From: Oceanicoccus sagamiensis
Lineage (GTDB): Bacteria > Pseudomonadota > Gammaproteobacteria > Pseudomonadales > Dasaniaceae
Direction: 5' to 3'
NCBI RefSeq assembly: GCF_002117105.1
Contig: NZ_CP019343.1
Coordinates: 3,534,001 to 3,598,000 of the forward strand
Length of the DNA: 64,000 bases
In this document: one piece after another, positions 28,874 through 43,113 of the stretch
How positions within the stretch are numbered: the first letter of the stretch is position 1
How the letters are laid out: every line of letters starts with the position of its first letter
The notes under the pieces: generated by a model
What the model was told of the DNA's origin: nothing
Databases searched by the model: none
Seen by the model: the letters and a program-made list of their open reading frames with translations, nothing else
Position numbers and translations under genes: made by a program

Positions 28874-29599
28874 TTGAATATAAAATGGTTGCCCCTTAGT
28901 TTGTCCTTAATCAGCCCTGCCATCATGGCTCAGGGTGATGCCAATTATTTAGATGCTATGAGCTGTATGATCGAGCCCAGTATGCGCGTCGATGTTAGCA
29001 GCGCGGTGCCCGGTGTTATCGATAAACTGGACCTGCAAGTGGGTGATACGGTAAAGCAGGGTGGCAAGTTATTTTCACTCCGCTCTGGGGTTGAAGCTGC
29101 CAGCGTTGAAATGGCAAAAGTGCGGGTTGAATTTGCCAAGCGGCAAATGCAAAGAAATGACGAGATGTTTAAGGAAAACCTGATCTCCAGCCATGAGCGT
29201 GATGAATTTGAAACCGAATACCAGCTGGCATTAAAAGAGCTTAAATATGCCGAAGAGGTACATGATCTTAGAATGATTACCAGCTCAATTAACGGTGTGA
29301 TTATTGACCGCTTTATGGACCCTGGTGAGTATGTAGAAGATGCCCCGGTTATTTCCCTGGCCAATATTGAGCTATTAAAAATCGAATTGGTTTTACCCTA
29401 TGAGAGTTTTGGCACCATCGCCAAAGACAGTGTATTAACTATTTACCCTGAGGCTCCGGTAAATGGCAGCTATGAAGCAAGCATCAGTATGATTGACCCG
29501 ATAATTGATGCTGCCAGTGGTACCTACCGAATCCGTGCCGCGCTGTTAAATACCGATAGTAAAATTCCCGCGGGTATTAAATGCCGGGCAGCCTTATAG
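28874..29599 (+). CDS. Periplasmic adaptor (membrane fusion protein, HlyD/RND-type)
   Basis: 241 residues with a signal peptide ending near AIMA|QG. The mature part shows the adaptor layout: a lipoyl-like half (VPGVIDKLDLQVGDTVKQGG), a short alpha-helical hairpin rich in Glu, Lys and Arg (about 75-130), the second lipoyl half (INGVIIDRFMDPGEYVED), then a beta-barrel segment (VISLANIELLKIELVLPYE). Start is TTG at 28874, preceded by GGAG at nine-base spacing; no in-frame ATG keeps the signal peptide. It is shorter than most adaptors, which run about 350-450 residues. It lies 110 bp after the giant gene on the same strand and may be co-transcribed with it, which would suit an export role. No inner-membrane pump or TolC-type gene is present in the window, so the partner is unknown. 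Confidence 0.85.
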   Translation: MNIKWLPLSLSLISPAIMAQGDANYLDAMSCMIEPSMRVDVSSAVPGVIDKLDLQVGDTVKQGGKLFSLRSGVEAASVEMAKVRVEFAKRQMQRNDEMFKENLISSHERDEFETEYQLALKELKYAEEVHDLRMITSSINGVIIDRFMDPGEYVEDAPVISLANIELLKIELVLPYESFGTIAKDSVLTIYPEAPVNGSYEASISMIDPIIDAASGTYRIRAALLNTDSKIPAGIKCRAAL

Positions 29600-29653
29600 C
29601 ATGCATGCTTAACTGGAGGTTATCCAGTCAATAAACAGTGAACAGGGTGGTTG

Positions 29654-30265
29654 ATGGAAAACTTTCTAGCGGCGTTTATTTTCTTTTTTGCGGTGATTGA
29701 CCCCATCGGCACAGTGCCAGTGTTTATTGCGGTTACTCGCTCCTTTGAAGAAAGTATCAAGCGAAAGATTGCCTTAAAGGCCACATTGTTCTCGGCCATT
29801 ATTCTGTTGTTCTTTGTGGTTGCCGGTGAGTTTATTCTGACTGCTATCGGTATCAGTTTGTCGGCGTTTCAAATAGCCGGCGGTATTGTGCTTTTTCTCT
29901 TTGCTCTGACGATGATATTTGGTGAGAGTAAACCCGAGGAAGAGTGTGCCATGGTTGAGACCAGCTCAACTGATACCGCTATTTTTCCTTTGGCTATCCC
30001 TTCTATAGCCAGTCCCGGTGCTATGTTGGCGGCGGTATTGCTCACTGAAAATAGTAAATACAACTTTCTGGAACAATCGATAACCGTTGCAGCGATGTTG
30101 TCGGTATTAGTGGTGGTATTAGTATTTTTATTTGCTGGCAGTGCAATCCATCGTTTAATTGGTGATAGCGGCGCGAGCCTGATCAGTCGTGTTATGGGCT
30201 TAATTTTAGCGTCAATCGCCGTTTCCAGTGTGCTTGAAGGGGTTAAAACTTACTTTGCGCTATAA
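29654..30265 (+). CDS. MarC family integral membrane protein
   Basis: 203 residues, almost entirely hydrophobic, with about six membrane segments. The opening FFAVIDPIGTVPVFIAVT and the later FPLAIPSIASPGAMLAAVLL carry the paired DP[IV]G and [AS]xPG type signatures of the MarC (UPF0056) family. MarC proteins sit in the inner membrane; their transport function is not established, and an early link to multiple antibiotic resistance was withdrawn. I chose the ATG at 29654 over the adjacent TTG at 29651. The gene follows the adaptor by 54 bp on the same strand, and a short hairpin (29612-29628 region) without a T-run lies between them. Confidence 0.9.
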   Translation: MENFLAAFIFFFAVIDPIGTVPVFIAVTRSFEESIKRKIALKATLFSAIILLFFVVAGEFILTAIGISLSAFQIAGGIVLFLFALTMIFGESKPEEECAMVETSSTDTAIFPLAIPSIASPGAMLAAVLLTENSKYNFLEQSITVAAMLSVLVVVLVFLFAGSAIHRLIGDSGASLISRVMGLILASIAVSSVLEGVKTYFAL

Positions 30266-30350
30266 TCGCATCACAAGATTCGGAGTGTTGTTAGCGCTTT
30301 ATTCACTGATAATGCATTATTAAAACCACTGCTGCTAGGACCGGACTCCT

Positions 30351-31193
30351 GTGAACACATTAATGCATGATATCTGCCGTTATATCGAAACGCATCATCA
30401 GCAGCGGTTAACGCTGGCAGTATTGGCTGAGCAGGCCGGTATGAGCCCGGCGCACTTTCAAAAACTTTTTAAAAAAACTATTGGTGTGTCTCCTCGGCAA
30501 TACCAGGAGCGCTGCCGCATACAGCAGTTTAAGCAATCACTTAAAGCGGGAGATAGCGTCACCGCGGCTATTCAAAATACCGGTTATGAATCCACTTCCC
30601 GCATTTATGAAAAGCTCGATAGCCATATTGGTATGACCCCAAACCGTTATAAAAAAGGCGGAGCGGGGGAGACCATTTCCTATGCTTCAACGCTAACCGC
30701 TATCGGTACTGCCATGATTGCCGCTACAGATCGTGGCATTTGTTTTTTACAGTTAGATGAGTGCGATGCTTTATTGCTGCAACGGTTAAAGCAGGAGTTT
30801 CCCAATGCAGAACTGCAATCGATACACGCTTCTACGCAGCCATTATTTGATCAGTGGATGCAGCAGCTAAAGGTTTTTCTAGAGGGCAAGGTCGAGGTGT
30901 TGGACTTGCCACTGGATATTATCGGCACGGCCTTTCAACATATGGTCTGGCAGTATTTAACCACCATTCCTGCCGGTGACTTACAGTCCTATACCGAGGT
31001 TGCCAGAGGTTTGGGTCGGCCAAACTCTGTGCGCGCTGTAGCCAGTGCCTGTGCCAATAATAAAATAGCTATAGCAATACCCTGTCACCGGGTGATACGG
31101 GGCGACGGGAGTTTGGCTGGCTACAAATGGGGCTTGTCACGAAAGCGTCGGTTGATTGATCTGGAATCTTCAGCCATAAAAAAAGGCGAGTAG
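30351..31193 (+). CDS. AraC-type regulator fused to methylated-DNA-protein cysteine methyltransferase (Ada-like)
   Basis: 280 residues. Residues about 5-105 form an AraC/XylS helix-turn-helix pair (MSPAHFQKLFKKTIGVSPRQY, then a second helix set ending GMTPNRYKK). Residues about 120-275 form an O6-alkylguanine DNA alkyltransferase domain with the active-site PCHRV; the acceptor is Cys245, followed by GDGSLAGYKWGLSRKRRLI. The domain moves alkyl groups from O6-guanine in DNA onto itself irreversibly. Enterobacterial Ada also has an N-terminal zinc domain that takes methyl groups from phosphotriesters and switches on transcription; that domain is absent here, so any inducible role must work differently. 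Start is GTG with AGGA about ten bases upstream; an ATG at 30363 is the alternative. A strong terminator overlaps its stop codon. Confidence 0.92.
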   Translation: MNTLMHDICRYIETHHQQRLTLAVLAEQAGMSPAHFQKLFKKTIGVSPRQYQERCRIQQFKQSLKAGDSVTAAIQNTGYESTSRIYEKLDSHIGMTPNRYKKGGAGETISYASTLTAIGTAMIAATDRGICFLQLDECDALLLQRLKQEFPNAELQSIHASTQPLFDQWMQQLKVFLEGKVEVLDLPLDIIGTAFQHMVWQYLTTIPAGDLQSYTEVARGLGRPNSVRAVASACANNKIAIAIPCHRVIRGDGSLAGYKWGLSRKRRLIDLESSAIKKGE

Positions 31194-31209
31194 TGATACT
31201 CGCCTTTTT
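31180..31209. terminator. Bidirectional intrinsic terminator
   Basis: A perfect 13-bp stem (AAAAAGGCGAGTA against TACTCGCCTTTTT) with a GTGA loop. The arms end in an A-run on one side and a T-run on the other, so it can stop transcription from both strands. It serves the Ada-like gene, whose TAG stop lies in the stem, and the convergent gene ending at 31253. Confidence 0.9.
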
Positions 31210-31252
31210 ATTGCAATCTTGCATTCACGACTAAGCGTGAAGCACGCTTGGC

Positions 31253-32068
31253 TTATGAAAAGTCTTTAGCGTAAGGCAGTTCACGATCGCCGCCCCATAG
31301 CGCTTTGGTTAAACGGTCTGCCAGCTCTTTGCCGTACATACGTTCAACCATCTCATTCATAGGGTCGCGGTCAGAGATCTCTTTACGCAGTGCTTCATCA
31401 CGGTCTTGCTGTGCCTGCCACTGATCTTCAGGGATGCGGTCCGCTTTTTCTACATTGGCCAGCCACTGGTCCACCATTTTATGGGCAGTGCTGCGCACTT
31501 CTTCCATATTAGTTTCGTTATCCGGGGCGCTGATACACAGGCTGGTAGGTGTTTGGGTGGCGCGCATATATAAGTCGCGGCTAATAAAAGAGACAAACTC
31601 CGGGTTTTCCTGCCATTTTAAATACTGCTCATTGGCTTCATCGTAGTACTTGTCCATATAAGCAGGGTTGGCTGGCAGGTCTAAACGAGGCACAAAGTCC
31701 AAATACATAAACAGGTCAGGGGTGGTACCAAAAGCCAGACCGAGGTTAGGTGCATCAATCTGTGGGCCAAGGCTGATCGTCAGGTGCATGTTGGTAAAGC
31801 TGGCTTTGGGGTTGCCTACCCAGGAATACACCAACCAATCAATTTCAGGGCCAGCGAAGGTGCTTAAGTAGCCACCGGCACCGCTACCGTCAATAGCGGA
31901 ATAGGGCTGGAGGTCGGCGGTAGAGCCGTCAGGGCTTAGCTCAAAGCGGCCTTTGATTTTCTCAAAGAGCTCACCAAGGATGCTCCATAGTTCCTTAAAG
32001 GTTTCCTCGTTATCAACGCCTGGACGGGCATCGATCTCATCGATTAGTGAACGTGTTGACTTGCTCAT
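31253..32068 (-). CDS. Red chlorophyll catabolite reductase-like protein
   Basis: 271 residues, no signal peptide or membrane segment. From memory it aligns along most of its length with plant red chlorophyll catabolite reductase (RCCR/ACD2). Shared landmarks in the same order are IDWLVYSW (plant IDFVIGSW), the APN segment in DAPNLGL, LDFVPRLDLPANPAYMDKYY (plant LDLPHRKDLVLNPDYLKEYY), NPEFVSFISRDLYMRATQTPTS, and a C-terminal RMYGKEL (plant RMFGEEV). RCCR reduces a ring-opened chlorophyll product using ferredoxin and is structurally related to bilin reductases. The acidic residue I recall as substrate-binding in the plant enzyme (VVELIQ) appears to be Ala here (LGLAFG), so the substrate may differ. 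ATG start has AGGAG upstream. No chlorophyll genes are nearby. Homology is likely; function is open. Confidence 0.75.
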   Translation of the reverse strand: MSKSTRSLIDEIDARPGVDNEETFKELWSILGELFEKIKGRFELSPDGSTADLQPYSAIDGSGAGGYLSTFAGPEIDWLVYSWVGNPKASFTNMHLTISLGPQIDAPNLGLAFGTTPDLFMYLDFVPRLDLPANPAYMDKYYDEANEQYLKWQENPEFVSFISRDLYMRATQTPTSLCISAPDNETNMEEVRSTAHKMVDQWLANVEKADRIPEDQWQAQQDRDEALRKEISDRDPMNEMVERMYGKELADRLTKALWGGDRELPYAKDFS

Positions 32069-32166
32069 GGGGTGGCTCCTGACAGCAAAAAGTTATATTG
32101 ATATGCTTTTAATACATTTAAGTTAACATACTTGCTTTTGGGGTGCAATGTTCTGGCGTTGGAGGC

Positions 32167-32197
32167 GTTAGCTAACCACTGGGACCAGTGATTTAGC
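32167..32197. promoter_or_regulatory. Nested palindromes, possible operator
   Basis: In the 282-bp gap between the divergent RCCR-like and sensor kinase genes, a perfect 10-bp palindrome GTTAGCTAAC (32167-32176) runs into an inverted repeat with arms GCTAA...TTAGC (32171-32197) around CACTGG-GA-CCAGTG (32177-32190). Such symmetry between divergent genes suits a dimeric regulator site, but no regulator is assigned. Nothing else in the gap is recognisable. Confidence 0.35.
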
Positions 32198-32350
32198 GGC
32201 TAGTGTAACGTAGAAGGGGTAGGGGGTCACTAGGCAAATTCGGCCTATTCGTATTGCCACTGGCCACTTAAGAACCTCTTGTCGCCCAATTAGATAGCCC
32301 TGATTAGTGACTTTTGTTAAGGTTTGGGAAAATAACAACTGTCTTATTCT

Positions 32351-34219
32351 ATGTTTGCTTTATTGGCCGCCCTGTTATCCTTCCAGCTGGTATACCCGGA
32401 GATTCTGGTCGACGAATCATTTGACCAGCTTTTTCTGCAAGAGCAGGTCAGGGTACTTGAGACCCCAGAGGCCCTAAGTTATGAGCAGGCGATAGCAAAG
32501 CTTACCCAGGGTGAATTTAAAACCGTGGCTGGCCAAGGCCTGGCTTACCCCAGCGGTAAACACTATTACTGGCTCCACTATCGGGTCAGGAATACCGGCA
32601 GTGCCCCCATTACGGTGTATACCGAAATCAGAAACCCGCATATCAACTATCTACAGTTATTTGAATGGGTGATTGGCGATAGTGCGGTGACGGCCTCTAA
32701 GCTCACGGGTGACTACACGCTCTTTGATACCCGGCCTATCGATCATCGCTTTTATGTCTTCCCTTCACCGCTGGCAGCCGGCGAGACCAAAGAATTTTTA
32801 CTGTTTGCTGATAAGTACAATGAGTCGATGAAGCTGCCGATTATGTTGCGCAGCGAAACCAATTTCTTAGCTAACTCTAGTCAGGAAAACGCGCTACTAG
32901 GTCTTTATATTGGGATCTATCTGGTGATTATTGTTTGTCTGGTGATTTTAAATATTAGCCGCTTTAAAGGCATTTATTTTTCATTGCTCACTTATGTGGT
33001 GTCTTTTGCCCTCTTTGCGGTGGCCAATACAGGGCTTGGCTTTCAATATATCTGGCGTGAGGTCTATTTGTTTAATAGCTTGTCGCGTCCTGTCTTGACG
33101 CTGTTTGCCGCTGTGTCTTTGTTGATTTTTTGTCATTTTTATTTTGAACTGGGGCGTCCACAGCATCGCAAAGCCATGCTTGTTCACCGTATAGCCCGTG
33201 TCTACTTTTCCCTGAACTGGTTGTTCTTCTGTCTCTATTACCTGTTGATTTTATTGCAGTTGCCGCTGCCGGGTATTGTGTTTATTCAGTGGGTACAAAT
33301 AGGGGTGGCCTTACTCCCGGTCTACCTGATCGCTATGGGAGTCTATTTTCTGGTCACGGATTTTCGCTGGAAGTATGCGGCTTTTTTATTGGCCAATGTG
33401 GGTATTTTGTCGGCGATATTGATTATTGTGCTGGAGGAGATGGGCGTTGTGCAAAATGTTTTTCTTCAGGAAAATATTACTATGCTAGCACTGGTACTGG
33501 ATTTCTCCGTGCTTACCTGTGTGATCGGGGGGGATTTTTACCGGCTGAGAATTGATAACCAGCAGCTGAGTAATTCCTTGTCGGAAGCTTTGATTGAAGG
33601 TGGTCAGCAGTTTGTAGAAGGCCAGCAAAGGGAGCGAACCCGTTTGGCACAGGAGCTTCATGATGGTGCCAGTTCACGTTTGTCAGCCTTGCAAATGCGT
33701 ATCTCTGCGTTAACTACCGATGACAAGGCCTTAAAGCAATCGCTGGTCAATGAAACACAGGTGATTGCGCAGGATATTCGTCGTTTTAGTCATAATTTAA
33801 GTTCAGTGGTATTGGAGCGTTATGGTTTTATCAATGCGATAGAAGAGTTGCTCTATTCCATTGAAGAGTCAGAAACCGGTTTTGAGGTGGAGTTTAATTA
33901 TACGGAGGATAGTGTAGCGTCCAAATCGACCGAGCGGGAGTTATATTTTATGTGTCTGGAATTAATTAATAATGCTATTAAGTATTCCACCGGTGATCAT
34001 TTATTGGTTGAATTTCGGGTCAGCGATACCCTGTATGAATTAATCGTTAGTGATAATGGTGATGGCTATCTGTCCGATAACTTAAGCCAGTCAGGGTTGG
34101 GGCTTAAGGGGATTAACTGGCGGCTGCAATTATTAAAAGGGGAAATGAAGGTAGAATACCGTGACGGTTATCAATACCACCGGATTAAAATACCTCGTTA
34201 TTCGCCTGGATATATTTAA
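32351..34219 (+). CDS. 7TMR-DISM sensor histidine kinase (LytS/NarX-type HisKA_3)
   Basis: 622 residues. An N-terminal hydrophobic stretch (MFALLAALLSFQLV) acts as export signal or anchor. A periplasmic beta-rich sensor domain of the 7TMR-DISMED2 type follows (about 40-170, with YWLHYRVRN), then seven membrane helices (about 185-395), a short coiled linker, and a HisKA_3 dimerisation domain with the phosphoacceptor His437 in ELHDGASSRLSALQ. A C-terminal HATPase_c domain has the N box ELINNAIKYS and a G box (DNGDGY, SGLGLKGI). DISM receptors are thought to bind small periplasmic ligands such as carbohydrates. The adjacent convergent NarL-type response regulator is the obvious partner; the two 3' ends overlap by 35 bp. 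Confidence 0.92.
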   Translation: MFALLAALLSFQLVYPEILVDESFDQLFLQEQVRVLETPEALSYEQAIAKLTQGEFKTVAGQGLAYPSGKHYYWLHYRVRNTGSAPITVYTEIRNPHINYLQLFEWVIGDSAVTASKLTGDYTLFDTRPIDHRFYVFPSPLAAGETKEFLLFADKYNESMKLPIMLRSETNFLANSSQENALLGLYIGIYLVIIVCLVILNISRFKGIYFSLLTYVVSFALFAVANTGLGFQYIWREVYLFNSLSRPVLTLFAAVSLLIFCHFYFELGRPQHRKAMLVHRIARVYFSLNWLFFCLYYLLILLQLPLPGIVFIQWVQIGVALLPVYLIAMGVYFLVTDFRWKYAAFLLANVGILSAILIIVLEEMGVVQNVFLQENITMLALVLDFSVLTCVIGGDFYRLRIDNQQLSNSLSEALIEGGQQFVEGQQRERTRLAQELHDGASSRLSALQMRISALTTDDKALKQSLVNETQVIAQDIRRFSHNLSSVVLERYGFINAIEELLYSIEESETGFEVEFNYTEDSVASKSTERELYFMCLELINNAIKYSTGDHLLVEFRVSDTLYELIVSDNGDGYLSDNLSQSGLGLKGINWRLQLLKGEMKVEYRDGYQYHRIKIPRYSPGYI

Positions 34220-34829
34220 TCAGGCCAAAGGTTCCACTGACATTGAGTTTTCTGAAAATATTTTTCTTATGGGTTCTGACAGTATTTTTACTGATAAATA
34301 ACAGGTCAGCAATTTCCTGTTCATTGTTGCCGGCGATAATAAGGGCAGCCAGTTCTTTTTCTCGCTTGGAGAGCTCTTCTAAATTCGCATATTGCTCAAT
34401 ATCATCGCTGGGACTGTCAGTGATTTTTAGCTCCTGATCGAACACCGTGCCGCCATTGATGACTTTCTCAATCGCCGATTGAAAACTGTCCTGGTCGGTG
34501 TTTTTCAACAGGTAGCCATTGGTATTCAAGTCACTGGCTTTATCGATCAGTTTTTTATTGTTATAGGATGAAAAAATGATAATTTTTAAGTCTTCAATAA
34601 TACCTCGGAAGGCTTCAACATGATCTAAGGAGTTGATGCCATTGATATTCAGATCCAGTAATAGCAGGTCGTACTTATTTTCGCTGAGCCGAGAGCTGAT
34701 TTCATCGATGGAAGCCGCGTAATCAAGGTCATTGATAATGCTGTGATTATTGAGCATGGTTTCAATGCCTTGGAAGATCACCTGGTGATCGTCACCGACA
34801 AGGACGTTGACTGGATTGGACTTATTCAT
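34185..34829 (-). CDS. NarL/FixJ family response regulator
   Basis: 214 residues. Residues 1-125 form a receiver domain with the acidic pair GDDH near the start, phosphoacceptor Asp59 in LLLLDLNING, a conserved Ser/Thr-type position in IIIFSSYNN and Lys in GYLLKNT. Residues about 145-212 form a LuxR-type helix-turn-helix (LSKREKELAALIIAGNNEQ, then ISKNTVRTHKKNIFRKL). The protein binds DNA as a dimer when phosphorylated, most likely by the HisKA_3 kinase encoded tail to tail with it. Kinase and regulator pairs of this class are usually in one operon, so the convergent arrangement with overlapping 3' ends is uncommon. Targets are unknown. Confidence 0.93.
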   Translation of the reverse strand: MNKSNPVNVLVGDDHQVIFQGIETMLNNHSIINDLDYAASIDEISSRLSENKYDLLLLDLNINGINSLDHVEAFRGIIEDLKIIIFSSYNNKKLIDKASDLNTNGYLLKNTDQDSFQSAIEKVINGGTVFDQELKITDSPSDDIEQYANLEELSKREKELAALIIAGNNEQEIADLLFISKNTVRTHKKNIFRKLNVSGTFGLIKYIQANNEVF

Positions 34830-34979
34830 TATGGGTTCTCAACCATTGAAAAATAAAATGGGGCGTCCCTGCCCTAAATAAATAGGTACTTCCAATCCTC
34901 GAGGTAACCTATTCACACTTATTATGGTAGTTCGGCGCCAGAAAAACATACCGCATTTGGGGTATTTTCAGTCCTCAGC

Positions 34980-36550
34980 TTACAATAAGTCGCCATCTTC
35001 GCCAATTGCGTTTAGTTGCATACCATCCGGGCCAGGCAGGGCGGGGTCGGCAATCCATGGTGCCAGGCAGTCCCGGTCCTCTACACAGGGATCGGTTAAG
35101 GCCTGTAAAAAAGCCACAATCTGGTCGGTTTCATTGTTATTGATCTGGGTGTTTTGAAACAGCGCCGTGTTGTTGTCGCGCTCTCTATTGAGTTGCTGCA
35201 AAGCCTGGTTGGAGTTTGTCTCGGCAAAGGGGTAGAGGCTTGCACAGTCGCTAATGTCAGCAAACTGTTGCAGCTGACACCAGCCGCCCTGGTCAAAGAA
35301 GTCTGCTACCCGGCCTCGCGGGTTGTCATAATGCCGCACCACCTGTCTCAGGGTCTCATAGGCTCCGCTATGGCCGTAGGGGGCCGTGGCGCTGATATTT
35401 AACAGGCTGGCGGTGCGAAAGTGATAGCGGTCATTCCTATTACCCGTCTCTCGGGCTCTGCCAAAGTCATCGTTATTGCCATCGCCATCGCCTTTACCGG
35501 GGCCGATTTGGGGGAAGGCAATAACATGATGCAACCCATCGCTAAACTGGTCACCGCTATGGCAGCTGGCGCAGCCTGCGCCGCCATCATCCACCGAGGT
35601 GAGAAATAAAATAGCCCCCTGTTTTTGTTGGTTACTTAGGGCATTGTTATTGCCTTCGATATAGTCTTTCCAGGGGCTATCGATAAATACCATGGAGCGC
35701 TCATATTCACTGATCGCCAGAGCAATATTGTCGAAGCTAATCAGTTCTTCTGCAGCTTCGCTACTGGCAAAGGCTGCTTGGAATTCACTGACCCAGGTAC
35801 TGGACGCTAACTCACCGCTGCCTTCGCCATAGTTACCGATTCTGGCCGCAAGATGGCTGCGGATACTGGCATTGCTGCTGCCGTCTTCAAAGTCCGTGGT
35901 TTTCATTTCGTCGACGGAGGTCACCGGGAAGCGTGCCTGTGCCGCGACCAGATTGTCCCCCGCATTGCTGTCAGCAGTAGCAAAAACGCTGTCTGGGGTG
36001 CGAATACCGGAAGCGGCTCCGTTGGCGCCAGTGTCTTTGCCCAGACTTTCAACCCGTGAATCCCAGAATAAGCCGCTATCCCACAGGCCAACATTAAAGA
36101 CCGTGGGGAGTTTCGGGGTACAGGTGGAGCGCCATCTCTATGTTCACGGCCTGGCCCCAATAACTCGGGGTTGGTGGCCAGGGTGCCCACTGGCAGTGAC
36201 AGGTCATCACCGCCACCTAGCAAGGGGTGGTGGCAACTGACGCAGGCGGTATCAAAACCACCGCCAAGGCTTTTGCTAAAAAACAGCTGTTTACCTAATT
36301 GTGCCAAGGGGCTATTGATTGAGGGCAGGGCTCTGCCGGTACTGGGGTCTCCGGTTAACGCCTGTTCGCTGATAAGCGCACGTAATTGCACATCGATTGG
36401 GCTGTCAGGGCTTGTGACTTCGGGGGTATTAATGACCGCGGTATTATCGTCGGTCTGGTTGGGCGTTGCGCTATTACTGCCGCCTCCGCTGCCACAGGCT
36501 GTTAATAATGTGATTGATAAGCTGGTAACTAATAGTGTTATTGGTTTCAT
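34980..36550 (-). pseudogene. Di-heme cytochrome c peroxidase/MauG-family lipoprotein gene, frameshifted
   Basis: Two frames together encode one protein. The first (ATG at 36550, good GGGGGAG upstream) has a lipoprotein signal ending LLTAC|GSGGG, then the first heme site CVSCHH and PVPRNSP. The second frame resumes with TVFNVGLWDSGLFWDSR and carries the second heme site CASCH plus the family ending APYGHSGAYETLRQVVRHYD. Family members read RN[ST]PT[VL]FN here, so one C is missing from a run of four (GGGG at 36105-36108 on the plus strand). Without it the first frame runs to an early stop near 35921. Intact, it would be about 520 residues: a periplasmic lipid-anchored peroxidase or MauG-like oxidase. 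Either a genuine inactivation or a homopolymer sequencing error. Confidence 0.88.
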
Positions 36551-36784
36551 ACTCCCCCCATCTAAGAAACTGGTGATCAGACTAAGGGATGAATGGGGAG
36601 GAATTAGGAAGCTACTGTGCAAGCAATGTGTAAAAAGGGGGGGGGAATTATGCCACTGAGAGTACAGTTTCTAACAGTTTCGCTTATACGCGGAGGTTAT
36701 GGCTGCGATAGGAATAAGCCATTTCTATGGAAACCGAGTAGTGATTAAGCTGTCTATAGTCAATAACCGGAATAGGACAACACT

Positions 36785-36976
36785 ATGAGTAATGCTAAAT
36801 CGTCCAGTATTGTATGTAAGGAACCTAAGGTTCAAGTCTCGTCACGGGGTATTAGCCGAGAGGAAGCCGAGTTTATGCAGCAGATTTTCCAGCTGGGCAA
36901 ACCGGTACGCACGCGCAGTACTTCCAGGATCGCACGGCCTAAGCCTTCGTTAAACCTCAGGCGTGATGCTAGTTAA
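36785..36976 (+). CDS. Small basic hypothetical protein
   Basis: 63 residues, not recognised. It has AGGA seven bases before the ATG and a composition typical of a real small protein: a Ser-rich start, a central helical stretch (REEAEFMQQIFQLGKPV), then a basic tail rich in Arg and Ser. No signal peptide or membrane segment. It lies in the gap between the divergent peroxidase gene and the PQQ dehydrogenase gene, and its last 8 bp overlap the end of the latter. Could be spurious; conservation in relatives would decide. Confidence 0.5.
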   Translation: MSNAKSSSIVCKEPKVQVSSRGISREEAEFMQQIFQLGKPVRTRSTSRIARPKPSLNLRRDAS

Positions 36977-39005
36977 ATAGCTTAAGTAGTCGGTCCCAGA
37001 CGCTTTGTGGCTCCCCCAGTGCAAAGGCGGTAATAAAGTCACCGGGCCGGCGATAGATAAAAGGATGGCCTCCCGCCGCTACAACAATATATTGCACGCC
37101 GTTTATTTCGTAGCTCATGGGGAGAGTAAAAGCTCCGGTAGCTAACTCAAATTCCCAAACTTCTTCTCCTGTCGATAGATCAAAGGCTCTGATTCGGTTG
37201 TCCGCTGTGGCACCAATAAAGACCAGACCACCCGCTGTGACCATCGGCCCGCCAAAGGTGGGCGTGCCCCATTTTAACGGAATCGGCACGGGAGCCAGTT
37301 TGTCGAGAGTGCCCAGTGGTGACTGCCATAGTATTTTCCCCTGCTCAATATCAACCGCCACCAGCTCTGCCCAAGGGGGCTCTGTACATGGAGCATAATA
37401 GGGTGACATAACCGGGCCCTGTTTCAGGTGGTAAGGGGTACCGTGTAGCGGGCGTGGTTCGCCCACTTTAAATTCACCGCTGTCATCAGCCTTGCTGCTG
37501 ATCTTCTCATTGGGTATCAGTTGCACAAAATGCTGGGCCCGGTTGACGTTGGTGACCAGTATTTTATTGGTCTTATCGATCGCGACACTGCCCCAATTAA
37601 TCCCGCCAGCTGTGGAGGGTTCTACGATGGTGCCCTCCAAGCTAGGAGGGGTAAAAATGGGGCCAAAGCGGGCAGAGCCGTATTTCTCTTCGCATTTGCC
37701 TTTCAGTGGCGCCCAGAAGTCGTCCTTGGAGGAACCGTGTGGGACCAGTGGTGGCGGGGCTGTGGGGAAGGGTTGAGTCGGCGATAGCAGTTCGCCAGGC
37801 ACACCGTCCTGAGGAACCGCTCGCTCTTCTATCGGGAAATAGGGAGTACCGGTTTCACGGTGGAAGATATAAATCATCCCCGTTTTGGTGGCCTGAATAA
37901 CTGCAGGGAAGGGTTCGCCCTCTTTGCTCAGTTCAACCAGTACCGGCTGTGCCCCTACATCGTAGTCCCAGACATCGTGATGGATAAGCTGGAAGTGCCA
38001 GACCACCTCGCCAGTACTGCCTCGCAATGCAACGATGGAGTCCGAATACCGGTTATCGCCGGGGCGGTTACCACCGTAGAAGTCCACCGAAGGGCCGGAG
38101 GTGGGGAGGAATACCAGATCTCGCTGCTCATCAACACTTATACCTCCCCAGGTATTGGCCCCACCGGTTTCGGTGGCGGCTTTGGGATCCCAGTTCTGGT
38201 ATTCAGGGTCGTTGGGATCACGGGGTATGGGGTCAAATTGCCAGAGCAATTCACCGCTGCGAACGCTAAAGGCGCGGATGGCCCCGGAAGGGGCGTTAAC
38301 CCGATGGTTATCCCTGACTGAGGTGCCAATCACCAGGGTGTCATTAATAATGGCCGGTGGCTGGTAGAACTTTACTTCGCCGGGCCAGGCGGGTTGTTTG
38401 GCCATAGCCAGGGGCTCGGCATTGACCACTCCCTGGACACCAAAATCTTCACATACTTTGCCGCTGATCGCGTCGATGGCAATAATTTTTAAATCGTTGG
38501 TGCCGGAAATAATTCGCTGACTACAGTGTGCTTGTTTATCCTTACTCTCTTTATCCTGCCAAAAAGATACGCCGCGACATTTGCTATAGGGCACCGATTT
38601 TTTTCCACGGGGATCATTTTTATTACCATAGCCATGGATGACGGTTTGCGGATCAAAGGTCCAGCGTTCTGCTCCGTTGACCGGATCGATGGCGACAATG
38701 CGATTAAAGGGTGTGCATGTCACCAGATGTTGGCCCGCTTCCTTAGGTAGTAAAATAGGATTGACCTGAAAGCCGGCGTTTTCGTTCTCTATTTGGGAGT
38801 GGCTGGCCACGGCTCCTGTCTGGTATTGCCAGACCGGTTGCAGGCGGTCGATGGTTTCACGATTGATTTGTTGCAGGTTGGAGTAACGACTGCCTGCTTT
38901 ATCCGCCCCCCAAGTATCCCAGCCAGAAGCATGACTATGGTTATCAATGAGTAAAAGTATCGATAAAAACAGTGTTAAAACCGTATTAGGGAATATTGTA
39001 GGCAT
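36969..39005 (-). CDS. Periplasmic PQQ-dependent dehydrogenase (glucose dehydrogenase-like)
   Basis: 678 residues from the chosen ATG at 39005, which gives a clean signal peptide (VLTLFLSILLLI, cleavage near SHA|SG); the frame stays open to 39119 with upstream starts that lack such a signal. The mature protein opens WDTWGADKAGSRYSNLQQI and has repeated beta-propeller blades with AxDxxxGexxWxF signatures (VNGAERWTF, STGEVVWHFQ, EQGKILWQS, STGEEVWEF). GANTWGGISVDEQRDLVFLP and the HHDVWDYDVGAQP loop are typical of the membrane-type glucose and related quinoprotein dehydrogenases. It lacks the N-terminal membrane domain of E. coli Gcd and any CxxCH heme, so it should be a soluble or peripheral enzyme passing electrons to quinone or a separate carrier. 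Substrate is not predictable. No PQQ synthesis genes are in the window. Confidence 0.9.
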   Translation of the reverse strand: MPTIFPNTVLTLFLSILLLIDNHSHASGWDTWGADKAGSRYSNLQQINRETIDRLQPVWQYQTGAVASHSQIENENAGFQVNPILLPKEAGQHLVTCTPFNRIVAIDPVNGAERWTFDPQTVIHGYGNKNDPRGKKSVPYSKCRGVSFWQDKESKDKQAHCSQRIISGTNDLKIIAIDAISGKVCEDFGVQGVVNAEPLAMAKQPAWPGEVKFYQPPAIINDTLVIGTSVRDNHRVNAPSGAIRAFSVRSGELLWQFDPIPRDPNDPEYQNWDPKAATETGGANTWGGISVDEQRDLVFLPTSGPSVDFYGGNRPGDNRYSDSIVALRGSTGEVVWHFQLIHHDVWDYDVGAQPVLVELSKEGEPFPAVIQATKTGMIYIFHRETGTPYFPIEERAVPQDGVPGELLSPTQPFPTAPPPLVPHGSSKDDFWAPLKGKCEEKYGSARFGPIFTPPSLEGTIVEPSTAGGINWGSVAIDKTNKILVTNVNRAQHFVQLIPNEKISSKADDSGEFKVGEPRPLHGTPYHLKQGPVMSPYYAPCTEPPWAELVAVDIEQGKILWQSPLGTLDKLAPVPIPLKWGTPTFGGPMVTAGGLVFIGATADNRIRAFDLSTGEEVWEFELATGAFTLPMSYEINGVQYIVVAAGGHPFIYRRPGDFITAFALGEPQSVWDRLLKLFN

Positions 39006-39288
39006 AATCGCTGGGTTTATTATTGTTATGGACGGTTGTTTAACAAGAGCTTGTGGCCAGATTACAACTAAGTAGCCATTAGATAACAGCTTTGATTCTG
39101 CCATAGTGAACACAGGCAACCAAGTCAGGCAAAGCCTATTACCGGGTAAAGATTATTAAAGTTGCAGCGTTTAATTTTCTGTCAGAAGTTATGACAAAAA
39201 ATCCTGAGGGCTGTCAGGGAATCGCGGCTAGCCGGCCTTATTAATTTTAAACCAGAAGAGCAGTTTGCGGTTTATTTTTACTTGTGAG

Positions 39289-39645
39289 CTATCGCTGTTG
39301 AGGGGAATTTATCGCTGTCATTTCACCGGTTTTTTTATCGGCCGTAACTAAAATAATATTACCGCTACGCTGTAGTAATCGAATCTGATAAAGCTGCGGG
39401 TCGCTTGCAGTTTTTACGCTGATCACTTTTGCTTGAAATAAATATTCAGCCTGTTGAATGATTTTTTCTGTGCTTGGTGGTGGCGGTTCTGATTGTGCGA
39501 TCACCTTGCTGCTGGAAAAAATAAACAGCAGTAGGGCAATAACAGAAAATATTTTGACGGCGGAAACGGACTTTCGCAGGGGCAGATCAGGCCAAGTCGA
39601 TAGCCGGGGAGCGCGTCTGCGATAAAAGTTTGGCTGCTTTTTCAC
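39289..39645 (-). CDS. Small exported protein with PepSY-like domain
   Basis: 118 residues. A basic N-terminus (KKQPNFYRRRAPR) is followed by a hydrophobic segment (KIFSVIALLLFIFSSS) that is either a signal peptide ending near VIA|QS or a membrane anchor. The C-terminal 55 residues (EYLFQAKVISVKT, YQIRLLQRSGNIILVTADKKTGEM) have the length and strand pattern of a PepSY domain, ending in the usual D[AK]xTG[EK]. PepSY proteins often inhibit proteases or sense extracytoplasmic signals. The start is GTG with no clear ribosome site, so the true start may be further in. It stands alone, 283 bp from the dehydrogenase gene. Confidence 0.65.
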   Translation of the reverse strand: MKKQPNFYRRRAPRLSTWPDLPLRKSVSAVKIFSVIALLLFIFSSSKVIAQSEPPPPSTEKIIQQAEYLFQAKVISVKTASDPQLYQIRLLQRSGNIILVTADKKTGEMTAINSPQQR

Positions 39646-40033
39646 GGGGGTAATTTGCCACTAATTTTATGAACTAAGCTTTATTATTGCCTTTGCAGGT
39701 CATTGGTCACTAACTTTTTTACCGCTACGTTATTCACACTTTACTCTGTTGGCGCAAACACTGGGTCAATTCTTTGTCATTTTACCTGTATAAGTATACA
39801 AATATCGTAAGTTATTGATATATAAGAGTTTAATATACTGGTCAAAATTTAACCAATCAGTAATAAGTGTTGATCTTATGGGCCTTAAGCTACCATTCTC
39901 TCAACTTATCCCCGAACTTATCCACAGAATTTGTGGATAAATTAATAGAAACATCATAATGGCTTAATTATAGGCCTTTATGGTTGCGCGGAGGCTGGCT
40001 ATGCCGGTACTGCGAGCCAAGGCTGGAGCGGCA
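39646..40033. other. 388-bp gap with AT-rich stretch and DnaA-box palindrome
   Basis: No gene seen. It contains an AT-rich segment (about 39780-39860) and then the DnaA-box cluster described separately. On the minus strand it follows the stop of the hybrid kinase and precedes the PepSY-like gene. Confidence 0.7.
39906..39940. promoter_or_regulatory. Two perfect inverted DnaA boxes plus one partial box
   Basis: TTATCCACA at 39918-39926 and its exact reverse complement TGTGGATAA at 39932-39940 are separated by GAATT, making a 23-bp near-perfect palindrome. A partial match TTATCCCCG lies 12 bp upstream at 39906. TTATCCACA is the high-affinity DnaA box. No dnaA, dnaN, gidA or rpmH is nearby, so this is more likely a DnaA titration or regulatory site than the origin. 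Confidence 0.55.
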
Positions 40034-42928
40034 TTATTCAGCCGTTGGGTTCTGTGTATTCTCCGGTAACAGTAAATTCTCAGCTTCCAGAGCATTGATC
40101 AGGTCGTTTAAGGTAATAGGCTTGGTCAGGTAGGCATCCATACCGGCTTCCAGTGCACGGGCCTTGTGGTCACTACGCGCATGGGCGCTTAGGGCAATAA
40201 TGGTGACCTTGCTTTGACCCGACTGTTGTTCCTTGGCCCGGATCTGATGGCTGGCTTCATAGCCATCCATTTCAGGCATTTCGCAGTCCATTAAGATAAG
40301 GTCGTAGTCGTTTTGTTCATAGTGATGCAGGGCTTGCAGACCGTTGGCGGCAATATCGGGAATAATATTGAGCTTTTTCAGTAGCCCCTGAATGACCAGT
40401 TGGTTGACCTGATTATCTTCTGCCAACAGCACTGTTAAGGTTTTTGTGCTGACCGCGATGGCCGCTTCCTGTTGGGCCTTTTGCTGGGGGGGCACGATAG
40501 CCTGGGTCAGGGCGTCATGTAGCAGGGCATTGGTGACCGGTTTTTCCAGCATAATCTCAATACCGGCTTCACTAAGCTCAGTGGATGAGCCCAGTTTTCG
40601 GCTGGTCGCCATTAACACAAAATTGCAGTCCTTGTGGTTGGTTTGAATCTGTTGTGCCAGTGCCAGGCTATTACCACCTTCCAGTTGGTACTCAGCCAAT
40701 ATAACGGTAAAGGGCTGCTGTTCTTCCAGTGCACGGGATAATTGCTGCTGGGCATGATCGACATCGGTCGCGGTTACCACGTCCATTTTCCATGAGCTTA
40801 GCAGTCTGGCGATAATATCCGCAGAGACGGGGTTGGGGTCGAGCAGTAATAAACGCTGACCAGCGAGCTTTGATGATTTCTCCCTAAGCAAGGAGCTGTC
40901 AGGGTGCTCGTCAATTAATAGTCTTGCGGTAAACCAGAAGGTTGACCCATGACCTGCTTCACTGCTTACACCAATCGTGCCATCCATTAACTCGGCCAGT
41001 TGTTTACCAATAGCCAGACCAAGCCCGCTGCCACCATAGCGACCATAGGTGGTTTCGTCGGCATGCTGGAAGGGGGTAAACAGCCTTTGTTGCTCGGCTT
41101 TGGTTAAGCCAATGCCGCTGTCCTGGATTTCAAATTTAAGCTCTACGCAGTTAATACTGGTTTTTGAGGTGCTGGACACTTTTAGCAAAATGTCCCCCTG
41201 TTCGGTAAATTTAAACGCGTTACTAAGCAGGTTGAGAATAATTTGCCGCAGTTTGGTGGCGTCGCCTTTTAATACCGGTTCAATGCCGGGTTCAAGGTCA
41301 GCAATAAAGTTGATCTTCTTTTCCATAGCCCGCAGGGAAAAGGTAGAGATGCAGTCATCAAGCAGGGTTTCGAGGTTAAAGCTGGCCACATCGAGGGCCA
41401 TTTGACCCGCTTCTATTTTGGCGAAGTCCTGCAAGTCGTTAATAATGCTAAGCAGTGACTGACTGGAGCGCTCGATAGTATTCAGGTATTGGGTTTGCTG
41501 ATCGCTGAGTTTGGTGGACTTCATCAGCTCGGTTTTTTCCAGCACATGATTCATAGGTGTACGGATTTCGTGACTCATGGTAGCGAGAAAGTCACTTTTG
41601 GAACGGCTCTCCAAGCGCGCTTCACTGGAGCTTTGCTCAAGCTGGATACGTTCCATTTGCGATTTTAGCAGCTCGGTTCTGGCTTTGAGTTTTTCCTCGT
41701 TGGCCTTGGCCATACTGCGGCCCGCTTCACGGCTTTCTTTTTGCAGTTGATTAATACGGTCTGCCAGCGCCAGAGAAAAGAATACCAGCATCAGGGTGAT
41801 TCCCATGGCACCCAAACTCTCGGTAAAGCCGTTGGCGCGTATCAAGCCCACGGTGGCCATATTGTCAGCCACCAGAGAAAACACCAAAATCATAATGGCA
41901 ATGACAAAATGCCCCGCTGAAATCACCCCGGCTTTACGTACTATCACCCCTGAACTTAAGGCGGCGGCAAACAGGGCGGTGGTGGTGGCCAGTCCTAGAA
42001 ATAGGGCGATCAGGCTATTGCTGGCGATCACCACAATAATGCTGAGTGCAGCAATCACGCTGAGTAGGCGAATAGTTTTTAATAAGGCCTTAGAGTGTTT
42101 TTTCAGGTTCAGGAAGTAAATACAGAACTGGGAAAACATCAGAATATTAAAGCTGTAGGCAAGTGCATAGATAGGGAGCTTGGCCCAGGCTTTGTCGGTG
42201 GCAATATATTGGTAGATATGGCCCTGATCTGCAGCAATCAGATAGGCGGCACTGGCCACATAGAGTACATAGTAAATATAGCTTTTCTGATGGGTGGAAA
42301 TATATAAAAACAAATTGTATAAGGCCATCACCACCAGAATGCCGTATAGCATGCCATAGAGCATTTGGCGGTGTTGCTCATACTCGGTAAAGTGACCCGG
42401 CTCCCAGGCTGTTACCCGAAACTGGAACAGCGGTTCGCTGTAAATACGCCAGACCACTGTTACACGGCTATTGGCTGGTAGTGTCAGGGTATTCACCAGA
42501 TTGCGATGAGGGGTTGGGCGATTATCAAAGCGGTCATCCATACCCGCATCGGCATAGAGGGTTTCGATCGTGTTACTGCTGTCGATCAAATACAAGTCGG
42601 CAACGTTGATGGAGGGGTATTCAGTCTGCAAGGTAATGGTAATACTCTGGGAGCTGGGGTTATTCAGCACGCCTTTAAACCAGTACAAGCCCGGTTGCGT
42701 AATCAATTGCCGGTCACGCTGTTGGCCGTCTTGCCAGGGTAGCTCAGTCGACAGCTCAGGGTCGGCAATTTGCCCTAAATGATAGCTTTGCTCTTGGTCA
42801 TAGAGGTAGTCGAGCAGGGGGTTTAGTTGCAGTGTGTTACCGGACTGACTGAGGTCAATCGCGTTGGCATGGGCGCTGCTGCCAAAGAGCAGGAAGGAGG
42901 CGGCGATAATGGAAAATAAAAGGCGCAT
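40034..42928 (-). CDS. Hybrid sensor histidine kinase, 7TMR-DISM with two receiver domains
   Basis: 965 residues from the ATG at 42928 (a TTG three codons upstream is the alternative). Order: signal peptide (LLFSIIAASFLLFGSSAHA), 7TMR-DISMED2 periplasmic domain (about 30-170), seven membrane helices (about 185-395), coiled linker, HisKA with His453 in SHEIRTPMNH, HATPase_c (N box LSNAFKF, G boxes DSGIGL and GSGLGLAI), a first receiver (about 695-815) and a second receiver (about 832-950) with Asp881 in ILMDCEMPEMDG. In the first receiver the expected phosphoacceptor Asp appears to be Glu (ILAEYQLEGG), so it is probably not phosphorylated. There is no C-terminal Hpt domain, so a separate phosphotransfer protein would be needed. 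It is a stand-alone gene; signal unknown. Confidence 0.92.
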   Translation of the reverse strand: MRLLFSIIAASFLLFGSSAHANAIDLSQSGNTLQLNPLLDYLYDQEQSYHLGQIADPELSTELPWQDGQQRDRQLITQPGLYWFKGVLNNPSSQSITITLQTEYPSINVADLYLIDSSNTIETLYADAGMDDRFDNRPTPHRNLVNTLTLPANSRVTVVWRIYSEPLFQFRVTAWEPGHFTEYEQHRQMLYGMLYGILVVMALYNLFLYISTHQKSYIYYVLYVASAAYLIAADQGHIYQYIATDKAWAKLPIYALAYSFNILMFSQFCIYFLNLKKHSKALLKTIRLLSVIAALSIIVVIASNSLIALFLGLATTTALFAAALSSGVIVRKAGVISAGHFVIAIMILVFSLVADNMATVGLIRANGFTESLGAMGITLMLVFFSLALADRINQLQKESREAGRSMAKANEEKLKARTELLKSQMERIQLEQSSSEARLESRSKSDFLATMSHEIRTPMNHVLEKTELMKSTKLSDQQTQYLNTIERSSQSLLSIINDLQDFAKIEAGQMALDVASFNLETLLDDCISTFSLRAMEKKINFIADLEPGIEPVLKGDATKLRQIILNLLSNAFKFTEQGDILLKVSSTSKTSINCVELKFEIQDSGIGLTKAEQQRLFTPFQHADETTYGRYGGSGLGLAIGKQLAELMDGTIGVSSEAGHGSTFWFTARLLIDEHPDSSLLREKSSKLAGQRLLLLDPNPVSADIIARLLSSWKMDVVTATDVDHAQQQLSRALEEQQPFTVILAEYQLEGGNSLALAQQIQTNHKDCNFVLMATSRKLGSSTELSEAGIEIMLEKPVTNALLHDALTQAIVPPQQKAQQEAAIAVSTKTLTVLLAEDNQVNQLVIQGLLKKLNIIPDIAANGLQALHHYEQNDYDLILMDCEMPEMDGYEASHQIRAKEQQSGQSKVTIIALSAHARSDHKARALEAGMDAYLTKPITLNDLINALEAENLLLPENTQNPTAE

Positions 42929-43113
42929 AGTTAGCAAGGTCGGCGTTAGCCGGTTGTTATTGTTGCTGCGATAGAAAGCACTGTACCATCAAATGTTTAA
43001 TCACCAAAAGCTTTAATAAGCATCCATGGTAATGGTGCTGAACGTGCGGCATAATCATGGCTGAAAACTGTAGCGGCCATCGCGCCCATATTTACGCTAT
43101 TAGGGGAGCTTCA

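Follow-up and report, generated by a model that had tools for sequence, protein, structure and literature searches.

A homologue of plant red chlorophyll catabolite reductase in Oceanicoccus sagamiensis and the possible pigment-degrading pathway behind it

What does a relative of a plant chlorophyll-catabolic enzyme do in a heterotrophic bacterium? The question is raised by a gene on the minus strand at positions 31253..32068 of the window (the whole stretch of 64,000 nucleotides of Oceanicoccus sagamiensis DNA that was analysed). A first-pass annotation, made from the sequence letters, had described it as a bacterial homologue of red chlorophyll catabolite reductase (RCCR), with the RCCR/bilin-reductase fold, in a non-phototroph, and had thought of the detoxification of algal chlorophyll breakdown products as one example of its role.

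Family membership and predicted fold

The open reading frame of the gene (P0001) covers exactly positions 31253-32068, begins with ATG and encodes 271 amino acids with zero internal stops; the opposite (plus) strand, translated from the identical first base, is full of stops. The protein matched the Pfam model of the RCC reductase family (PF06405) over residues 34-256 with 73.9 bits (E 1.5e-20), about three times the curated gathering cut-off of 24.9, and stayed below the cut-off of the bilin reductase model (PF05996; 22.2 bits, cut-off 31). Used as a single query it found Arabidopsis RCCR (AtRCCR) in the PDB at 7.6e-12, and a profile of 23 rows found AtRCCR at 2.2e-23, followed by tomato HY2 (1.5e-8) and Guillardia PEBB (2.8e-7). 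Relatives in other genera are 65-67% identical to it across 265 amino acids, which fits selection on the protein.

The structure model of the protein (pLDDT 91.4, pTM 0.90) had as its best structural match in the PDB the substrate-bound F218V mutant of AtRCCR (3agc; E 3.5e-14, TM 0.73/0.76, the former by query length, 22% identity). The first nine Foldseek rows were all AtRCCR (which is represented by, e.g., 2zxk, 3aga and 3agc), with HY2, PcyA and PebB next. The 50 Foldseek matches listed consisted of RCCR, bilin reductases, coproporphyrinogen oxidases and a protein named PcyA that is a subunit of the Ycf2-FtsHi motor complex (8xqw, 8xks), the last indicating that the fold can be recruited to other roles. 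Ferredoxin-dependent bilin reductases, RCCR and coproporphyrinogen oxidase are described in PMC13193486 as the three known enzyme families with an RCCR-type fold, all of them tetrapyrrole-binding.

In a tree of 52 rows, in which the plant and algal sequences are partial, AtRCCR forms a long branch and other long joins were flagged, AtRCCR and 26 bacterial rows (hereafter A-type) formed a clade with support 99/96, with HY2 and PEBB outside it; the A-type rows without AtRCCR had support 90/77. Constraining AtRCCR to group with HY2 and PEBB cost 8.27 log units (p-AU 0.039), a weak rejection. The gene is thus well supported as a genuine RCCR homologue by its sequence and its predicted structure, and a chance match or antisense artefact is ruled out by the stops on the plus strand, the PF06405 score, the structure match and the tree. 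The first-pass annotation had staked its proposal on a family match and a bilin-reductase-like fold, and both were found. With the plant enzyme the protein shares the C-terminal Asp and an LD..R motif besides family, fold and clade. HY2 and PEBB have the C-terminal DP motif in common with it as well.

The nearest kin of the gene were found in a Candidatus Azophilus MAG (L006) and in two Pseudohongiella MAGs (L007 and L008), all at 65-67% identity, followed by L009 (55%) and G103 (50%). The congener G003 has a copy in pieces, the larger of which is only 49% identical to the window copy over 166 amino acids, and the GC content of the gene is 0.506 against 0.485 for the window; the closer affinity to L006-L008 than to the copy of the congener and the GC offset are suggestive, and no more than that, of a recent transfer of the window copy. 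As a separate observation, four RCCR-superfamily genes lie on a contig labelled Bifidobacterium breve (L010, CAMCVY010000012.1), which is possibly mis-binned; in the tree three of these genes fall among rows from other actinobacterial MAGs and the fourth next to those rows.

Active-site positions of the A-type proteins

Two residues of AtRCCR, Glu154 and Asp291, are presumably the substrate-pocket residues that matter for the substrate (the AtRCCR residues were numbered with the help of chains 3agb and 3aga, which differ by F218V). Glu154 lies opposite Ala112 of the window protein (codon 31733..31735, minus strand) in both the profile alignment and the tree alignment, and opposite a gap in the single-sequence alignment. 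The alanine that had been noticed at the place of the substrate-binding Glu of plants is therefore borne out, and it recurs among the relatives: in the 23 A-type rows of alignment A1 the position holds A (18), V (4) or I (1) and never Glu. Outside the A-type it was Asp or Glu in all 12 superfamily rows of the wider alignment A9, with exceptions in the larger tree set (Phe in L103 and L109, His in L105 and L108, Asn in HY2). Since the acid is absent from all A-type rows and mostly present in other members of the superfamily, Ala112 appears to be a trait of the clade and not a defect of the window copy. Nor does the loss of an acid rule out activity, as pre-1 bilin reductases lack the catalytic acids of PcyA and the one pre-1 enzyme tested still yielded small amounts of product (PMC10151467).

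Other positions are strictly kept. Asp235 (codon 31364..31366, minus strand) pairs with Asp291 of AtRCCR in the profile and tree alignments and with the adjacent Asp290 in the single-sequence alignment, and an Asp at or next to the plant Asp291 was present in 23/23 rows of A1. Asp124 of the LDFVPR motif (codon 31697..31699, minus strand) was conserved in 23/23 A-type rows and in 22/22 rows of A9. The RM[YF]G segment (R243-M-Y-G246, codons 31331..31342, minus strand), put forward earlier as a landmark of RCCR, proved not to be a signature: Gly246 is invariant but Met244 is present in only 4 of the 23 rows, and PEBB, a bilin reductase, also reads RMYG.

Genomic context, partner proteins and distribution

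The source genome (G000) is a single contig of 4.47 Mb. A search with P0001 found five homologues in it, and the broader superfamily profile A9 found 11 loci, at approximately 668, 680, 724, 927, 940, 967, 2423, 2595, 2652, 3565 (the window copy) and 4210 kb. Three of the paralogues exceeded the PF05996 cut-off of 31 (L103 with 63.8, L029 with 56.1 and L030 with 31.7 bits). The earlier remark that no chlorophyll or bilin genes are visible holds for the ten genes within 28874-42937 according to Pfam and fails for the genome as a whole, given the ten further superfamily loci. None of the families of the RCCR clusters described below was found within 10 kb of the window copy, and its neighbours are unrelated. 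The photosynthetic reaction centre family (Photo_RC) was absent from the source genome, with matches in control genomes, in agreement with a non-phototroph, and haem oxygenase (PF01126) was absent in the search with that family, for which 3 of 14 control genomes were positive. The absence of both suggests that the substrate is probably imported, and the absence of PF01126 disfavours a supply of bilin for phytochromes. The Staygreen Mg-dechelatase model gave zero matches in the source genome and zero in the 14 control genomes too, so that this control was silent, and the best match to PaO (PF08417) reached 23.4 bits, under the cut-off of 27.

Elsewhere in the window, a giant adhesin-like protein of 9578 amino acids, with GNDxx-type repeats towards its C terminus, is encoded by one open reading frame at positions 27-28763 (plus strand). 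A di-haem cytochrome c peroxidase (CCP_MauG) at 34980-36622 (minus strand), adjoined by a PQQ dehydrogenase gene, consists of two overlapping open reading frames that each match one end of PF03150; judged from this arrangement, the gene looks split.

The relatives contrast with the isolation of the window copy. We compared the neighbourhoods of superfamily genes in 16 sources (genomes or contigs), using a custom gene caller (the RCCR gene of L006, which the caller missed, was added manually). The sources are partly related (L007 and L008 are near-identical, G386 and G481 belong to one genus, as do G000 and G003), the G386 and G481 contigs measure only 9.8 and 10.8 kb, and some loci of the source genome and of G003 were chosen for their Rieske or K6 gene. 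Within 10 kb of the superfamily gene we found a Rieske oxygenase in 13 of the 16 sources (in 11 of 14 when G000 and G003 are left out), hydrolase K3, flavoenzyme K5 and aldehyde dehydrogenase K8 in 11 each, MFS transporter K4 and short-chain dehydrogenase (SDR) K2 in 10 each, the K6 protein and the maleate-isomerase-like protein K7 in nine each, nitrilase K9 in eight, isochorismatase K14 and TonB receptor K16 in five each and K15 in three. The count of 11 for K3 takes in a divergent hydrolase of the source genome that escapes the A3 search, and the hydrolase of L009 was found by a first gene caller and missed by the second, which was the one used for distances. The cutinase-like K3 lies 0-19 bp from the RCCR gene in 9/16 sources. 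For the closest orthologues (L006-L008) the hydrolase is 7 bp and K6 about 1 kb away, and the Rieske gene 65 bp (L006) or 7 kb (L007/L008). In L009, L010, L013, G113, G140 (C7) and G481 a cluster contains a divergent B-type paralogue alongside the A-type RCCR. G508 has the SDR and almost nothing else of the set. RCCR-superfamily genes, those of the closest orthologues included, are situated in catabolic clusters with oxygenases, hydrolases and transporters.

The source genome itself has such a cluster at 1015-1025 kb, with genes for an aldehyde dehydrogenase, an acyl-CoA-dehydrogenase-like flavoenzyme, a nitrilase, an MFS transporter, a maleate-isomerase-like protein, an SDR, K15 and K6. Profile A9 found no RCCR-superfamily match in it, and K15 and K6 are 44 bases apart. 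In the matching cluster of the congener G003 an RCCR gene sits between K15 and K6, and both it and this K6 are fragmented (L036, 8966-10655); elsewhere G003 has another, whole K6 match and whole RCCR-superfamily genes without internal stops.

The partner proteins were characterised by conserved residues and by their kin. In the Rieske alignment (A4) the Rieske motifs are visible in the eight full-length rows, with D177, H180 and H185 among the invariant residues; the two cluster Rieske proteins scanned with Pfam were of the VanA_C/KshA_C type, and the best PDB matches of the Rieske profile were SxtDIOX, SxtT and NdmA. The invariant S156, D214 and H262 of K3 fit the triad of a hydrolase. We do not claim K3 as a proven chlorophyllase: the Chlorophyllase model scored 17.8 bits on L038 (E 0.0016), below its cut-off of 26, and the kin of K3 in the PDB are of the PETase/cutinase type. 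In nitrilase K9, E46, K118 and C151 are invariant in the first domain and the second domain is without an invariant Cys. The best PDB matches of K7 were maleate isomerases, and we checked two Cys positions that we take to be the catalytic pair of that enzyme: one Cys is missing in all 14 rows and the other in nine of them, so that for K7 we claim membership of the superfamily and not the identity of a true maleate isomerase. Isochorismatase K14 had N-carbamoylsarcosine amidases among its PDB kin. No Pfam family was found for K15, nor for the members of K6 that were scanned, and the PDB search with K6 gave no convincing sequence relative (one match, E 1.7). The best of five models of K6 is a two-barrel protein (mean pLDDT 84.8; the other four ranged down to 48.3), with plant BFA1 and a cyanobacterial DUF3598 protein as its best fold matches and nitrobindin as a weaker one; that K6 might bind a pigment is a guess.

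The genes also co-occur. Among 145 related genomes PF06405 was found in five, K6 in five and a close Rieske protein (at least 258 bits) in five, and these are the identical five genomes (G000, G003, G103, G113 and G140), which are also the only ones among the 145 relatives to match profile A9. Some Rieske match occurs in 93 of the 145, the best outside the five carriers being 163.5 bits. An identical set of five would arise at random about once in 5e8, a figure that ignores kinship (the carriers fall in three family codes, f1, f24 and f41). A strong K3 (at least 418 bits) was present in only three of the five carriers, and the search of related genomes found no A3-type hydrolase in G000 and G003, indicating that the K3 hydrolase is not needed everywhere. 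HemF, the coproporphyrinogen oxidase, is expected to be common among these genomes; although it shares the fold, it is ruled out as the source of the superfamily-profile matches, since 140 of the 145 gave zero match.

Five further genomes of the genus of the window (one of them 64% complete) gave no match to PF06405 or K6. The family was found in 4 of 369 genomes of the class and 1 of 398 genomes of the phylum (the source genome counted in both) and in none of 14 controls, so that it is rare in the genomes sampled. A scan of genome contigs with P0001, by which only close relatives are detectable, gave eight loci from 29 stretches. Carriage by plasmids, phages or viruses is rejected on the sequences searched: plasmids and phages gave no match (the phages were also searched with the L029 paralogue), and the 19 (A1) and 13 (A2) pattern matches in viral contigs included no relative.

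Candidate function of the protein and its pathway

Plant RCCR is free of cofactors and driven by ferredoxin, and reduces red chlorophyll catabolite by protonation and single-electron steps (PMC4950323); the enzyme immediately upstream in the plant pathway, pheophorbide a oxygenase (PAO), is of the Rieske type (PMC8219035, PMC4950323). On this basis, and from the comparisons of sequences, gene neighbourhoods and genomes above, we lean with moderate confidence towards the window protein being a reductase that receives electrons from ferredoxin and acts on a linear tetrapyrrole, as part of a bacterial route for degrading chlorophyll-derived pigments, the substrate and the pathway being the inferred parts. 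The protein would be a cofactor-free reductase of a ring-opened tetrapyrrole, with ferredoxin as the donor by analogy to the family and Asp235 as the remaining acid in the reduction. The pathway would be an aerobic catabolism of imported chlorophyll-derived pigments, in which TonB receptors and MFS transporters may bring in the pigment, the alpha/beta hydrolase may cleave a phytyl or methyl ester, Rieske oxygenases may open the ring or hydroxylate, several RCCR-superfamily reductases may saturate the bilin stepwise, and the aldehyde dehydrogenase, the flavoenzyme and the nitrilase-, isochorismatase- and maleate-isomerase-like enzymes may break formyl, lactam and maleimide-type pieces. The lone window copy would then serve a pathway encoded elsewhere in the source genome; like the order of the steps, this is inferred.

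The combination of a Rieske oxygenase, an RCCR and an ester hydrolase resembles the PAO/phyllobilin pathway of plants in kind, but the bacterial Rieske type is different, by family the bacterial partners are neither PAO (PF08417) nor Staygreen, and the bacterial clusters add further catabolic enzymes. A 2009 survey reported that bacterial PaO-like proteins are generally without the PaO motif (PMC2716323). Against the chlorophyll-pathway reading count the isolation of the window copy, the VanA/KshA type of the Rieske proteins scanned, the PF08417 score below cut-off, the missing PaO motif of most bacterial PaO-like proteins, the lack of an A3-type hydrolase in G000 and G003, the incomplete Cys pair of K7, the other use of the fold in the Ycf2-FtsHi motor and the fragmented RCCR and K6 of the G003 cluster; furthermore, clusters with an oxygenase, an aldehyde dehydrogenase, an SDR and a nitrilase also fit the degradation of other N-heterocycles.

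The best surviving alternative, which we rate as unlikely though worth keeping in sight, is that the pathway serves to break down linear tetrapyrroles of another origin (bilins from haem, or cyanobacterial phycobilins), the protein then being a catabolic bilin reductase that is not specific for chlorophyll. The fold also covers biliverdin reductases, the three paralogues of the source genome above the PF05996 cut-off would suit such a role, and free-acid bilins would suit a source genome in which no A3-type ester hydrolase was found. However, the tree places the window protein with plant RCCR and not with HY2/PEBB, PF01126 haem oxygenase was not found in the source genome, and we know of no role for the hydrolase and Rieske partners in the canonical supply of bilins.

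Distinctly less probable is that the fold was recruited, within an ordinary cluster of catabolic genes, to reduce or isomerise a non-tetrapyrrole such as a steroid, an alkaloid, a pyridine or a pyrrole. Rieske oxygenases of the VanA/KshA type, maleate-isomerase-like proteins and isochorismatase-type hydrolases occur in ordinary catabolic pathways, and all three are present here; moreover, the plant acid Glu154 is missing, the 11 divergent superfamily loci of the source genome suggest diversification, and the PcyA-named motor subunit is a precedent for recruitment. Yet the A-type rows all retain Asp235 and Asp124 and, 8xqw and 8xks apart, the 50 Foldseek matches listed all belong to families that PMC13193486 describes as tetrapyrrole-binding.

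That the enzyme is a lone detoxifier, with which the bacterium renders phototoxic breakdown products of algal chlorophyll harmless and does not feed on them, seems very improbable: the window copy does stand alone, chlorophyll catabolites that accumulate in PAO or RCCR mutants are phototoxic (PMC8219035) and PAO-like genes are up-regulated in algae grazers (PMC6898599), but in most of the 16 sources the superfamily genes lie in multi-enzyme clusters with oxygenases, hydrolases and transporters, which suggest catabolism, and the source genome has its own such cluster with K6, albeit free of RCCR.

Returning to the degradation of chlorophyll-derived pigments, a wider proposal, which we put forward tentatively and hold to be rather doubtful, is that aerobic heterotrophs, rare and, as judged by MAG titles, belonging to two or more phyla (Pseudomonadota and Actinomycetota), share a dedicated pathway for the import and mineralisation of chlorophyll, of which plant RCCR is a relative. 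Such a pathway might run from the ester hydrolase via ring opening by the Rieske oxygenase and serial reductions to a maleimide/maleamate-type breakdown, with the reductions performed by RCCR-superfamily paralogues with and without the pocket acid, and with K6 as a new bilin-handling double-barrel protein.

The occurrence of the RCCR family in bacteria was already known, as a 2009 paper had described RCCR-family proteins from symbiotic cyanobacteria (PMC2716323); what is possibly new here is the variant in heterotrophs and a new pathway behind it. The homologues of Nostoc and Anabaena, which we liken to the window protein by their description, are likewise bacterial and recognised by Pfam as RCCR family, but their hosts are oxygenic phototrophs and a catabolic cluster is not reported for them in the excerpts of PMC2716323, a paper that did not decide between cyanobacteria and plants as the source of plant RCCR. 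RCCRs "and related sequences" served as outgroup in PMC10151467 and were collected for a tree in PMC13193486. The pre-PcyA proteins (Rockwell et al. 2023, PMC10151467) are another case of the bilin-reductase superfamily in heterotrophic non-phototrophs, but pre-1 and pre-3 clusters typically contain haem oxygenase, Fe-S, V4R and globin genes, and the haem oxygenase, V4R and globin families were not found among the Pfam-scanned neighbours of the RCCR-superfamily genes.

Chlorophyll is synthesised and degraded in enormous amounts, and among the open-access literature matches listed we found no account of the RCCR-cluster gene set or of genes with which bacterial heterotrophs break down the chlorophyll ring. 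The bacterial RCCR clade and its recurring gene set provide candidate genes, substrates to test and marker genes for metagenomes, and they bear on the origin of plant RCCR and on the question of how a protein of this fold can function when Glu154 is missing. If true, a pathway for chlorophyll pigments would offer a new way to trace the fate of chlorophyll.

Bilin-reductase-like genes were also observed in other settings. In both congeners (L029, 7414-11536, and L035) such a gene, in which Asn replaces the conserved Asp, is accompanied by genes for a thiamine-diphosphate enzyme and a small cytochrome c. In the source genome the gene at L103 (2375-3061) lies between a cytochrome c gene and an uncharacterised gene of 338 amino acids, with genes for a GST and an aldehyde dehydrogenase nearby.
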